52,263 nt of DNA, taken from positions 1 through 52,263 of the forward strand of contig JAJEAL010000137.1 in assembly GCA_022822785.1 (NCBI GenBank). Direction: 5' to 3'. This DNA is from Candidatus Poribacteria bacterium. Lineage in GTDB: Bacteria; Poribacteria; WGA-4E; PCPOR2b. The translations under genes and the position numbers were made by a program. The notes under the pieces are model-generated. The model was not told the origin of the DNA, did no database searches, and was given only the letters and a program-made list of their open reading frames with translations. Below are positions 14,339 to 19,451 of the stretch, in pieces. The stretch's first letter is position 1, and every line of letters starts with the position of its first letter.

Positions 14339-15379
14339 TTATTCGACCTGCATCTCCTCTAGGTCTCTCTCAAGATTCTTGATTTCCGTCAAGGTCATTG
14401 AGTCCGGTTCAAGTGCGTACGCTTTTCGATAGGCTTCGAGTGCGGATTCCGGGTCTTGCAAAAATGACTGATAAATTTGTCCTATCCACAGATATGCATC
14501 GACCTCAGTAGAGTCTAGCGTGACGATTTTCTCATACACATCCAACGCGTCATCATAGGCGCGCTGCTCTCCCCCGCGCCGGAGCGTAGCCGCACGGGCA
14601 TAGAGCAATCCGATAAGTTCTTCTTTCGCTTCTATGAAATTTGGAACGCGTGCCACGACCTCCTCAAGGATTGCGATTCCTTTGTCCTCCAATCCGGCAA
14701 GCTGTGCCTGTTCCTCGGCGGTGAGATCTCGGTCAAGGAACTGGTATGCTTGAAGGATATTGCGGTAGGTTCGTGAGAGTTGCAATCGGGCTTGTAGGCC
14801 GATTGGCGCCAATTCAAAGGGGAGATGGGTGAGATCGGGGTCATTTGCGATTGCCTTCTCATAGTGGGCGGTTGCTTCCTCAAACTGTCTCGTCCCCTGA
14901 TACAATACACCTAGCAGGTAGTGCGCTTCCGCATACGTTGGGTCCGTAGCAATTACAGCGAGGAACTCTTTGACGGCTTCGGCTTGGTCACCGGTGTCAC
15001 GGAACAGTTTTCCGCGGAGAAGATGGACGGTAGGGTGGTTGGGATTTATTCTTGAAGCACGCTCCAGATGAATCTCTGCATCCTGTATCCAGTTGCTGTG
15101 AAAGTAAATTTCCGATATCCGGAGATGGGCGTGTAGTCGTAACGCACGGTCAACGTTGTGGGTGTCAGCTCCCATCGCCTGAACGCCACTCCAATACGCA
15201 AATAGCGCTTTTGCCAGATCCTGTTTTGCAAAGTATTCATCCCCCTGCTCAATGAGCCCCTGTGCCTGTGATGCAGGAGGCAGATCGGTTTCTGCCCCAC
15301 CCCTTTTCGTGTGCAGCACTATCAGGACGATAAGTATAACCAACATCATTGCCTCAAAATAGGGTAGCCATTTACGCAT
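14339..15379 (-). CDS. Membrane-anchored TPR protein
   Basis: A 346-aa protein with one N-terminal membrane helix (about residues 8-23, MMLVILIVLIVLH) and the rest made of tetratricopeptide repeats facing out of the cytoplasm. Typical repeat ends are visible: ALFAYWSGVQAM, AEIHLERASRINPNHP, EAVKEFLAVIATDPTYAEA, EATAHYEKAIANDPD, ALDVYEKIVTLDSTEVDAY and ALEAYRKAYALEPDS. TPR arrays mediate protein-protein contact; no enzyme domain is present. It lies 33 bases downstream of the DsbD-like gene on the same strand and may be the last gene of the redox operon. Partner unknown. Confidence 0.85.
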   Translation of the reverse strand: MRKWLPYFEAMMLVILIVLIVLHTKRGGAETDLPPASQAQGLIEQGDEYFAKQDLAKALFAYWSGVQAMGADTHNVDRALRLHAHLRISEIYFHSNWIQDAEIHLERASRINPNHPTVHLLRGKLFRDTGDQAEAVKEFLAVIATDPTYAEAHYLLGVLYQGTRQFEEATAHYEKAIANDPDLTHLPFELAPIGLQARLQLSRTYRNILQAYQFLDRDLTAEEQAQLAGLEDKGIAILEEVVARVPNFIEAKEELIGLLYARAATLRRGGEQRAYDDALDVYEKIVTLDSTEVDAYLWIGQIYQSFLQDPESALEAYRKAYALEPDSMTLTEIKNLERDLEEMQVE

Positions 15380-15412: not shown

Positions 15413-17269
15413 TCAATTAATTCCTTCCAAGAGTGTTAAAAATTCCTCCGGTTCGACAAACTTTTCAAGTCTTCTGTCCGTCAACTGATTTCCTTCAGAA
15501 TTGAAGAAAAGGACCACCGGTAGACCGACAATGCCATATTTCTGTTTTAGGCGTTCAACTTCGTCTGAATTCCGAGTGAAGTCCAGCTTGACATTCACGA
15601 ATTTCGACAATTTTGATTTTACCGCCGGATCGGAGTAGGTGTGCTCGAGTTCGTTGCAAGCAGCGCACCACGTGGCATAGAAATCGAGCATGACAGGTTT
15701 GCCTTCCCTGCGTCCAACCGCTAAACCTTCTGCTTCATCAGCTATCCAGACAAGGTCACTCTCCGCAGTTGTGAACCCTCCGACGAACATATAGAGCCCG
15801 GCAACTGCCAATAAAACGCCAACCGCTTTACGGAGTTGCACCAAACGGGGCAGGTCTTTGAACCGTTGTGAAAATTTGCCGAGAGCAACGCCAACTAGAA
15901 CCAAAGCACCCGCGATTACAAAAAAGCCCACAGAATTTTGGAGGAAGGTACGTAGTGGTGGGAAGACCTCTTTAAGGAAGTACAGCGCCACGGTGATGAT
16001 AGCCACGCCGAATATGTTTTCCAAGATATACATCCAGCCTCCCGATCTCGGCAGCGCAGCAATGACACCTGAAAATGTACCAATTACGATAAACAGCAAT
16101 CCCATACCGAGGGCATAGGTCAACAGCAGCCAAAATCCGAGGAAAGCGCTCTCTGTTGTGGCGACGTAGGAGAGCACAGCCCCCAAGGCAGGTCCTGTGC
16201 ACGGGGCGGCGATAATGCCTGCAACGGTTCCCATCGCAAAGGCACCGGCAAATCCGGCACCGCCGACAGTGTTGAGTCGATTCTGTAGGGCATAAGGCAC
16301 GCGGAGCTCGAAGACACCCAGCATAGACAATCCGAGCGCGACGAGAATCGCACACACTGGGAGCATTACCCGTGGGTCCGCCATTATCTGTCCAAAGACC
16401 GCTCCCGTTGATGCGACAGCAACGCCTAAAATCGAGTACGTTAGCGCGATGCCCATAACATAAGTAACGGATAAGAGAAAAGATCGTAGCCGCCCCACAG
16501 ATTCACCCGCTCCAAAGACGGAGACAGTTATCGGGATTAAGGGGTAGACACACGGTGTGAAACTGGTTAGGATGCCCCCCACAAAGACGAAGAGGAACGC
16601 CCAAAAGTAGCCTTTGGACAACGCTTGAGAGAACCTTCCACTTTCGCTGGTAGCGGTCGATGCAGGGTTATCAGGGGGGGGAAGTTCCAGGTTTGCGAAG
16701 ATTGTGTCGTTTATGGGTTGAATCGACTGGTCCATCCCGACGACATTAATCGCAACGTCGAAATCGATTGTTTTCGGCAACAAACACTGCTCGTCATTAC
16801 ACGCTTGGTATGTCAACTGGAAGGGCAGCGTAATCTGTCCCAACGGTGCTGAATCGAGCAGTGTCGCTTGGAATCCGATCACTGCCTCATCGTGATACAC
16901 CGGGACCTTGCCCCCTAGCGAGGCAATTTCGAGGACATCTGCCTTTGGATACACCACTTCACCGAATAGCAGATCGGAGTGGACGGGGAGGGTAACTTCC
17001 GTGGGGATTAAGCCTTCTCGAGCGGGATTTGCATTTGCGTGCCAGTTGGGCGCAAACTTCATCACGATAGCCATCTGAAATGTGCTGCCGGGCTGTGCTT
17101 GATTTACCGACAAGACCCCATGCGCCGTGACAATCTCAACCGGCTCCGCTTTTTGCCTAAGTAGTCCGAAATCTGCTAACTGTCCCCATACGGCAGCAGG
17201 GGTTCCGACGTATAGCACACAGATGAGACATACCAAAAAGTGGATACGGAAAACTGATTTTCTTATCAT
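15413..17269 (-). CDS. dsbD: DsbD-like thiol:disulfide interchange protein
   Basis: A three-part reductase that passes electrons from cytoplasmic thioredoxin across the membrane to extracytoplasmic thiols. From ATG 17269 (618 aa): signal peptide; DsbD alpha-type domain (FQMAIVMKFAPNWHANANP); a multi-pass CcdA/DsbD core with the two membrane cysteines in FTPCVYPLIPITV and AAPCTGPALGAVLS; and a C-terminal thioredoxin domain with CAAC at residues 535-538 (FYATWCAACNELE) and a cis-Pro loop (GLPVVLFF). An upstream in-frame ATG at 17314 overlaps the previous stop as ATGA and could be the translationally coupled start. I prefer 17269 for its AAGGG site and cleaner signal peptide. All key cysteines are present. 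Confidence 0.93.
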   Translation of the reverse strand: MIRKSVFRIHFLVCLICVLYVGTPAAVWGQLADFGLLRQKAEPVEIVTAHGVLSVNQAQPGSTFQMAIVMKFAPNWHANANPAREGLIPTEVTLPVHSDLLFGEVVYPKADVLEIASLGGKVPVYHDEAVIGFQATLLDSAPLGQITLPFQLTYQACNDEQCLLPKTIDFDVAINVVGMDQSIQPINDTIFANLELPPPDNPASTATSESGRFSQALSKGYFWAFLFVFVGGILTSFTPCVYPLIPITVSVFGAGESVGRLRSFLLSVTYVMGIALTYSILGVAVASTGAVFGQIMADPRVMLPVCAILVALGLSMLGVFELRVPYALQNRLNTVGGAGFAGAFAMGTVAGIIAAPCTGPALGAVLSYVATTESAFLGFWLLLTYALGMGLLFIVIGTFSGVIAALPRSGGWMYILENIFGVAIITVALYFLKEVFPPLRTFLQNSVGFFVIAGALVLVGVALGKFSQRFKDLPRLVQLRKAVGVLLAVAGLYMFVGGFTTAESDLVWIADEAEGLAVGRREGKPVMLDFYATWCAACNELEHTYSDPAVKSKLSKFVNVKLDFTRNSDEVERLKQKYGIVGLPVVLFFNSEGNQLTDRRLEKFVEPEEFLTLLEGIN

Positions 17270-17310: not shown

Positions 17311-17751
17311 TCATTCTTGCAACTGCTGATTAATCACTGCAGTCATTTCGTTTAGGGTCTGCTTGCTCGTTAGGCGAGCCGATATATTTCGCGTCTGATC
17401 CTTCAATAATAAAATGAAGCCCGTTCCTTGATTCGCTTTGTAGGCTTCACCCATTCCAAGTGCTGAGGCGAGCAATTCTGACTGATAGCGAGTGGTTCGG
17501 TTGGTAAAATCCAGAGTAACAAAGAGTACAGGCTTTCCATCGAACTTGTTTTGCAAATCGGTGAAGATGGTCCCCATCTTTTTGCAGGAACCTCACCAAT
17601 CTGCGTGAAACTTTACAGCGATTATCTGCGGGGCAGCAGGCTCTGTGGCCGTCTCCTCGCTAGATAAACTGATGGTCGTTACAATTAAGATGGTCGCCAC
17701 CATGATGGAGAAAGCAACCAAAATCCATCGAAGCTGAATGGGGGATTTCAT
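17311..17751 (-). CDS. Candidate selenoprotein: membrane-anchored thioredoxin, UGSC active site
   Basis: Read through one in-frame TGA (17595-17593) this is a single 146-aa thioredoxin-like protein. ATG at 17751 follows AAAGGAAAAAACATT; an N-terminal anchor spans about residues 9-29. The thioredoxin strand IIAVKFHADW is followed directly by TGA and then GSCKKM, so the stop sits exactly where the first Cys of a WCGSC motif belongs (residue 53; resolving Cys at 56). Sequence after it continues in frame as a normal thioredoxin fold (KPVLFVTLDFTNR, GTGFILLLKDQ) to a TGA that overlaps the DsbD frame. A SECIS-like hairpin follows the TGA. UGA ends other genes here, so general recoding is unlikely. 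Alternatives: a nonsense mutation of TGC, or two separate fragments; the 3' part alone would lack the active site. Confidence 0.78.
17564..17580 (-). promoter_or_regulatory. Candidate bacterial SECIS hairpin
   Basis: On the minus strand AAGATGG (17580-17574), loop GGA (17573-17571) and CCATCTT (17570-17564) form a perfect seven-pair stem. Twelve bases separate the TGA from the stem and 19 from the loop, and the loop opens with G. As I recall the bacterial SECIS rules, these call for a small loop with G in its first two positions roughly 16-37 bases after UGA, so this fits. A weaker competing stem GGTTCC/GGGACC also exists. Because the stem lies in coding sequence, chance cannot be excluded. 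Confidence 0.6.
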
Positions 17752-17888: not shown

Positions 17889-19451
17889 CTATTTTGGCTC
17901 AAGGATGGCGCAGGGCAAGATCATCTCCTCCATGGAGATACCACCGTGCTGAAATCCTCCGTGGAACTGGTGTTTATAGTCACTAAACTGATTGGGAAAA
18001 ACGAAGTAATAGTCCTCTTTGGCAAGGACATAATTTTTTTCGTAAGACATATCGGGCAACATGTACTGTTCTGGCTGAGTGATTCTCAACCCGGCCTCTC
18101 GGTCACATATAAGTTCGCCGCCAACCTTGAATCGCAGCCCATTGGTTGCAGGTCTATCGCCTGAAATCTTCGCTGCATGCTGACATAAGATTGAGCCGTG
18201 ATCCGCCGTTAAAATGACCGTGACACCGCGATCTGCTAGCAACTTGAGGATCTTATACACTCCTGAATGTCGGAACCAGCCTTGCACAAATGTGCGAAAC
18301 GCGGTTTCGTCAGGAATAAGTTGTTTGAGCAAGGCGATTTCCGAGCGTTTATGGGTTAGGTGGTCGATACAACCGACGACAGTTGCTGCTAAGCTGATCC
18401 GTTTGACGCCGCTAATCCACTGCAAGTACTCCATTTCTCCGCGCACATCAAAGATTTTAAAATAGTGCGGCGCGGGTTTGAGATGGATGCCGTGCCGATC
18501 TAGTTGCAATCGCATCAAATCTTTTTCATAGCGATTGACGCTGGTATTCTCACCATCAGTTTCTACCCATAAATCAGGGTAACGTTGTGCAAACTCTAGC
18601 GGAAACAAGCCGCTAAAAATTGAGTTCCGCGAGTAATTGGTTGCCGTTGGCAAGATTGAGTAGTGATAGTTTGTCGTAATCTGAAAATATGGATCTAAGA
18701 GTGGTTTAATTTTTAGCCAGTGATCTAACCGCATGCAGTCCATCACCATAAAGAATACCTGCTTGCCAACCTGTATCTCTGGGATAACATGTTTGTACAG
18801 CAGATCTACCGATAAGACAGGAGAATCCTCACCAATCAGCCAATCAGAATAGTTATCTTCAATGTATCGGGCAAACAGGGCATTACATTCCTGTTTTTCT
18901 AGTCTGTGTGTTTCGCGTAAATTATCGGCGATGTCAAGTTCATCTAGGCGCAGGTCCCATTCGGCAAGCTGGGTGTAGATATCAATCCATGTTTTCCAAT
19001 CGACTCCCTGCTGTTTTAATACACTCCGCTTATTAAAATCAATAACATATTCTTGAGCGGTATGATCCTCCTTAACGGTATCGTATTCTAGGAGGAAAGC
19101 GAGTTGTGACGCAATCTGCTTCGGATTCAACGGCTTCATTAAAAAGTCATCAACCTGATGAATAATTGCCTCATTCATAATCTCCCGTTGTTCGCTTTCA
19201 GTGACCATAACCACCGGCAAATGGGGGTATCTCCGCTTGATTGCCGAAAGCAGACCAATCCCATCCATATCGGGCATGACATGGTTGATGAGTACAGCGT
19301 CGTAAGGTTTTTCGTGTAGCAGTGCTAATCCGTCAGCTCCCTTCACCGCCGGCGTAATTTGATAACCTTTTTGTTCCAAGAATAGCGTATGCGTTTCTAA
19401 ACTGTTAATCCCATCATCAATCCACAAAATCCTCCTTGTTTGTGCTTGCAT
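17889..19451 (-). CDS. PorX-like response regulator with PglZ domain, atypical receiver
   Basis: A 520-aa two-domain protein. Residues 6-120 form a CheY-like receiver: acidic pair in LWIDDGIN, Thr in VVMVTES, Lys in FLMKPLNP. The phosphoacceptor site reads LINHVMPDMDG, with Asn56 (codon AAC at 19286-19284) where Asp is expected. The C-terminal part (about 220-520) is an alkaline-phosphatase-superfamily PglZ domain with MVMDCMRLDHW, the Thr region ILPTATNYSRNSIFSG (Thr269/Thr271) and LTADHGSIL for metal binding. The same layout is found in PorX of Bacteroidetes, which has nucleotide-phosphodiesterase activity; no type IX secretion genes are nearby. The Asn suggests phosphorylation-independent signalling or loss of control. 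GAGAGGTGATATGAA precedes the ATG. Confidence 0.88.
   Translation of the reverse strand: MQAQTRRILWIDDGINSLETHTLFLEQKGYQITPAVKGADGLALLHEKPYDAVLINHVMPDMDGIGLLSAIKRRYPHLPVVMVTESEQREIMNEAIIHQVDDFLMKPLNPKQIASQLAFLLEYDTVKEDHTAQEYVIDFNKRSVLKQQGVDWKTWIDIYTQLAEWDLRLDELDIADNLRETHRLEKQECNALFARYIEDNYSDWLIGEDSPVLSVDLLYKHVIPEIQVGKQVFFMVMDCMRLDHWLKIKPLLDPYFQITTNYHYSILPTATNYSRNSIFSGLFPLEFAQRYPDLWVETDGENTSVNRYEKDLMRLQLDRHGIHLKPAPHYFKIFDVRGEMEYLQWISGVKRISLAATVVGCIDHLTHKRSEIALLKQLIPDETAFRTFVQGWFRHSGVYKILKLLADRGVTVILTADHGSILCQHAAKISGDRPATNGLRFKVGGELICDREAGLRITQPEQYMLPDMSYEKNYVLAKEDYYFVFPNQFSDYKHQFHGGFQHGGISMEEMILPCAILEPK

Follow-up and report, generated by a model that had tools for sequence, protein, structure and literature searches.

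The analyzed window is a stretch of 52,263 nucleotides from a Candidatus Poribacteria bacterium and corresponds to contig C10 of a 5.6-Mb genome in 147 contigs with an estimated completeness of 96%. It contains a gene for a small thioredoxin-like protein in which codon 53, an in-frame TGA, almost certainly encodes selenocysteine. An initial annotation made from the sequence alone had proposed this assignment. It was borne out by the presence of the selenocysteine machinery, by retention of the TGA codon in six genomes, by the dN/dS values and by homologues with cysteine at this position. Taken as a whole, the protein is very likely a membrane-anchored selenoprotein of the thioredoxin fold which would be recharged by DsbD and would reduce an extracytoplasmic substrate.

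Gene, fold and active site

The gene is located on the minus strand, which the initial annotation had left unstated. Its reading frame extends from an ATG at 17751 to a TGA stop at 17311 and is open apart from codon 53. The gene has its closest named relatives in Candidatus Poribacteria. The following features were assigned:

17311..17751, minus strand: gene for the membrane-anchored thioredoxin-like protein, 146 amino acids, TGA codon 53 very probably read as selenocysteine
17668..17739, minus strand: N-terminal hydrophobic helix, residues 5-28, predicted signal-anchor (AlphaFold helix and sequence)
17593..17595, minus strand: in-frame TGA codon 53, position 1 of the UGSC active-site motif, kept in six genomes
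17311-17313, minus strand: terminal stop codon TGA

As noted before, the TGA lies between W and GSCKKM (HADW-U-GSCKKM) and the frame continues on both sides. The conserved TGA and the dN/dS values given below agree with this, as does a match of the Pfam family Thioredoxin (PF00085) to residues 42-87 with 34.8 bits (cut-off 23.5). Standard gene callers would report the gene in a truncated or split form. An AlphaFold model calculated from a 13-sequence family alignment revealed a thioredoxin fold with a pLDDT of 84, comprising the helix of residues 5-28 and a strand (residues 43-49) followed by a helix (residues 54-69). Its best matches in the PDB were thioredoxins with a TMt of about 0.6-0.7. 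The N-terminal helix, which would anchor the protein in the membrane, is preceded by positive charge and followed by acidic residues. According to the positive-inside rule the catalytic thioredoxin domain is probably located outside, facing the periplasm.

The name thioredoxin, used in the initial annotation, holds for the fold (PF00085, AlphaFold) and not for the more specific assignment. Thioredoxins have their cis-proline in the loop leading into the third core strand. All 18 family members in the alignment lack a proline there and show a T-G pair (V-G in one member) instead. The proline is kept at this site in the thioredoxin domain of the neighbouring DsbD (GLPVV) and in a second thioredoxin-like protein of the genome encoded on contig C74 (GFPAV). 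Within the thioredoxin fold class the cis-proline is conserved more strongly than CxxC and possibly prevents metal binding (PMC2757866; PMC6210436). In addition, the whole protein scored 26.9 bits with the thioredoxin equivalog TIGR01068, below the cut-off of 96.8 bits. Because of the absent cis-proline and this low score the family is thioredoxin-like, but not thioredoxin by the TIGR01068 standard. "Thioredoxin" is thus a description of the fold of this family, not of a proven chemistry.

The DsbD neighbour and a putative redox role

The gene is flanked by three conserved neighbours:

17889..19451, minus strand: PorX-like response regulator with PglZ domain, upstream
15413..17269, minus strand: DsbD-type thiol:disulfide reductase with three redox cysteine pairs, downstream
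14339..15379, minus strand: TPR protein, downstream of DsbD

Profile matches identified the downstream neighbour as DsbD-like, in line with the DsbD-type partner named in the initial annotation. Its N-domain carries a C-x5-C pair, its membrane domain the motifs TPCVYP and APCTGP and its C-terminal thioredoxin domain the motif WCAAC. The open reading frame of DsbD is readable from 17314 and overlaps the stop codon of the thioredoxin-like gene; the start common to relatives is the ATG at 17269. The ATGA overlap was dropped as evidence for coupling since it is not conserved.

The order PorX-like gene, thioredoxin-like gene, DsbD and TPR gene is kept in four relatives (L018-L021), and in G005 the thioredoxin-like gene also adjoins DsbD by position. 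Altogether, it precedes a complete DsbD in all six genomes that carry it. In the congener G001 the PorX and DsbD flanks both align and only the thioredoxin-like gene is missing from between them (L077, 1440-1530); despite this clean loss selB and selD are retained. Since G001 lost this gene only and kept DsbD, the thioredoxin-like gene is dispensable and DsbD is independent of it; DsbD also occurs in other relatives without the gene. A TGA that seemed to lie in frame within the G001 DsbD was rejected as a selenocysteine codon, as it is located upstream of the gene start. Beside the distant homologues examined no full-length DsbD was found; the sole DsbD match near them, 186 amino acids long and by the G364 copies, was to a shorter thioredoxin-like open reading frame.

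The PorX-like neighbour matched NF052313 with 549 bits (cut-off 300) and probably has no functional link to the thioredoxin-like gene. Type IX secretion systems with PorX are usually described from Bacteroidota. The Poribacteria genome thus presents a PorX-type response regulator of this system outside that phylum.

Sec53 and Cys56 most likely form a selenenylsulfide/selenol-thiol redox centre. As gene adjacency and the intact DsbD motifs suggest, DsbD would move electrons across the membrane and reduce this pair, which in turn would hand them to an extracytoplasmic substrate. Candidate substrates are the several peroxiredoxin-like selenoproteins that this genome encodes. A UGSC centre genetically paired with DsbD suggests a selenol working outside the cytoplasm. 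We cautiously lean towards such a DsbD-fed reductase role for the Sec53-Cys56 protein. The extracytoplasmic DsbD route put forward in the initial annotation is supported by the adjacency and the intact DsbD cysteines only. Absence of the cis-proline calls for caution in presuming standard thioredoxin chemistry.

Alternatively, the protein may be a selenoprotein but no DsbD-fed thiol-disulfide reductase, its Sec/Cys site binding a metal or Fe-S cluster or reacting with peroxide. We regard this as rather unlikely, and it stays under consideration because the cis-proline, present in both the DsbD domain and the C74 protein, is missing throughout the family. According to Su et al. 2007, cited in PMC6210436 (also PMC2757866), human Trx1 with a replaced cis-proline binds a [2Fe-2S] cluster. 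Some Bacteroidota homologues (L025, L026, L027 and L028) have degenerate active sites (SEAS, CENS) with one or both cysteines lost, which suggests that they are non-redox or monothiol descendants. However, UGSC or CGSC keeps both redox positions in the members from Poribacteria, Latescibacterota, Flavobacteriaceae and Opitutae, and the gene stands beside DsbD in every carrier. With an equally small likelihood, the gene would represent a selenocysteine-containing thioredoxin-fold family without cis-proline which acts in the periplasm with DsbD in a non-classical manner, for example as a selenol that binds a metal or Fe-S cluster or reacts with peroxide, in a lineage of symbionts with many redox selenoproteins.

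The preferred reading, a DsbD-recharged selenoprotein, was compared with known systems. Selenocysteine-containing thioredoxins and several UxxC thioredoxin-like families are listed in reviews (PMC9312934; PMC13188914). Like the listed selenocysteine-containing thioredoxin (PF00085, UxxC), the window protein has the fold, selenocysteine in first position, the UxxC motif and a Pfam score above cut-off, but it is membrane-anchored, lacks the cis-proline, is linked to DsbD and falls below every NCBIfam thioredoxin equivalog cut-off. It shares the thiol oxidoreductase type with UxxC with the selenocysteine-containing thiol:disulfide interchange protein (PF13098, UxxC; same reviews), but showed no PF13098 match at E 0.001. 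The letters UGSC also occur in the UGSC-containing protein (NF041046); however, no named NCBIfam selenoprotein model matched the window protein at E 0.001. In the rhodanese/DsbD fusion-like selenoprotein TsoB (NF045694) a DsbD-related module is tied to selenocysteine as well, but the DsbD of the window scored 317 (cut-off 805) and is free of selenocysteine, which resides in the separate small thioredoxin-like protein. Finally, the periplasmic CcmG/ResA/TlpA partners of DsbD are likewise membrane-anchored thioredoxin-like proteins beside a DsbD-type electron donor. In contrast, the window protein belongs to a different sequence family, and no such model scored above cut-off. Apparently, it is a new, unlisted member among the known selenocysteine-containing UxxC thioredoxin-like proteins. 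The two reviews contain no mention of Poribacteria, and a search on Poribacteria selenoproteins in one literature library found no paper.

Decoding of the in-frame TGA codon

The genes selA, selB, selD and tRNA-Sec (UCA), which the initial annotation had proposed to search for, were all present in the window genome. On contig C141 selA (518 bits with PF03841, 590 bits with TIGR00474), selB (367 bits with TIGR00475, above cut-off) and tRNA-Sec are adjacent. The tRNA gene directly follows selB, carries the anticodon TCA and scored 74.6 bits compared to a gathering score of 47. The selD gene on contig C25 also scored above cut-off and has an in-frame TGA of its own at the catalytic position (TCGU-AAK), a feature shared by 22 of the 24 related genomes in the search, the window genome included. 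In bins of sponge symbionts SelA and SelB are reportedly common (PMC5649159). SelB and tRNA-Sec (UCA) would decode the UGA of codon 53 as selenocysteine, with a short hairpin some 19 nt after the codon as an aid.

Among 98 relatives, most of the compared genomes being drafts or metagenome-assembled, the gene was detected in five of six same-genus genomes and, of three further genera in the family, in one, always with one TGA. Codon 53 is TGA in all six Poribacteria genomes with the gene, which represent two genera and reach down to about 70% protein identity (G002, G003, G004, G005 and G007 besides the window genome). The loci L018, L019, L020 and L021 are from the same assemblies as G004, G002, G003 and G007, respectively, so the number of independent genomes is six. 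The dN/dS ratio was 0.10-0.18 downstream of the TGA compared to 0.18-0.28 upstream. Thus, constraint is no weaker after the TGA. Alignment of homologues, also suggested in the initial annotation, yielded TGA in close relatives and a cysteine codon (TGT/TGC) at column 53 in distant ones, namely L022 (Latescibacterota), L023 (Flavobacteriaceae), L024 (Opitutaceae) and L029 (Pelagicoccus). The combination named there as speaking against selenocysteine, closely related strains with TGC/TGT and a decaying downstream region, was not observed: no close relative has cysteine and there is no decay. The distant genome G287, which possesses selA, independently has TGA in column 53, within a UPPC motif. 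Two criteria of the Sargasso Sea study (PMC1088965), conservation of the in-frame TGA in two or more sequences and the existence of cysteine homologues, hold for the thioredoxin-like gene.

These data leave little room for other readings of the codon. A pseudogene or a sequencing or assembly error, with TGA as a nonsense mutation or a miscalled TGC/TGT, would fit a single in-frame stop in a draft assembly of many contigs and the congener G001 lacking the gene altogether, but is extremely improbable in view of the identical TGA in six separately assembled genomes, the low downstream dN/dS and a genome with full selenocysteine machinery and other Sec-TGA genes. UGA is reassigned to tryptophan or glycine in some bacteria, and on this precedent it might be read here as another residue (Trp, Cys or Gly), either genome-wide or by near-cognate read-through. 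We consider this hardly conceivable, as TGA is the terminal stop of the thioredoxin-like gene and of 5 of the 20 window genes examined, a dedicated tRNA-Sec (UCA) lies beside selA and selB, the in-frame TGAs fall at catalytic cysteine positions of redox families and homologues have cysteine here. This is in line with the earlier remark that UGA is not a universal sense codon in this DNA.

Downstream of the selenocysteine codon one candidate element was found:

17564..17580, minus strand: candidate bacterial SECIS hairpin AAGAUGG-GGA-CCAUCUU, paired bases unchanged across six genomes

It has 7 bp and an apical loop (GGA/GGC) 19 nt after the UGA. G007 differs here at three positions, all in the loop or outside the stem. 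The bacterial SECIS model specifies 16-37 nt, G at loop positions one and two, a stem of 4-16 bp and an MFE <= -7.5 (PMC13188914). The loop GGA, the 7 bp and the 19 nt agree with it, whereas the isolated stem is weaker with -6.0 kcal/mol; folding the 45 nt that follow the UGA gave about -10 to -13 kcal/mol. G287 has a counterpart, AAAGGUGG-GUC-CCAUCUUU, in the same register with -6.4 kcal/mol, and similar hairpins follow other in-frame TGAs of the genome (SelD, UCAGUCC-AGUU-GGACUGG; peroxiredoxin, GCAACUC-GGA-GAGUUGC). A competing fold which includes the UGA itself was predicted at -18.6 kcal/mol in five genomes. It was rejected as SECIS element, as its loop is too near the UGA and its energy in G007 is only -10.3 kcal/mol. 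The 7-bp hairpin is preferred because its stem is intact in all six genomes and the competing fold weakens in G007.

The hairpin energy was matched by 433 of 5000 synonymous recodings (8.7%), so that the hairpin alone is weak evidence; among all codons of the window genes, about 8% have an equally good one. Synonymous sites of codons 51-67 varied less than elsewhere (Fisher p 0.013), which is suggestive but short of decisive. Across the six genomes, with few changes in the hairpin, no compensatory pair changes were seen, and an Rfam search of the window gave no match. The hairpin expected by the initial annotation exists with invariant paired bases, but is not significant by itself.

Other probable selenocysteine codons of the genome

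Family searches, the count from which is a lower bound, revealed at least nine Sec-TGA sites in the genome: SelD, the C74 protein, a tandem peroxiredoxin (two sites), four AhpC-TSA/redoxin genes and the window gene. The latter adds a well-supported selenoprotein to the phylum Poribacteria. Since redox genes of the genome hold no fewer than eight more Sec-TGA sites, Poribacteria appear to be sponge symbionts rich in selenoproteins and offer a setting for studying selenocysteine use in an animal-associated microbe.

The tandem peroxiredoxin (G000:C63:41175-41996; L093, L094) joins two peroxiredoxin domains in an uninterrupted frame, and both show the motif FTGGU with an in-frame TGA. Apparently, two selenocysteines would be present in one polypeptide. 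The four AhpC-TSA/redoxin genes (L096, L097, L102 and L103 on contigs C110, C138, C63 and C120) have TGA at the catalytic position, with the motifs GTWUPNS, GEWUPTC, GAYUPKD and QTYUPYC. The C74 protein (G000:C74:11494-11901; L091:973-1866, minus strand) scored below all NCBIfam cut-offs. It combines a thioredoxin domain similar to the C-terminal domain of DsbD, containing the motif TEWUSWCK, with C-terminal TPR-like repeats, and most of the 24 related genomes gave matches with one TGA.
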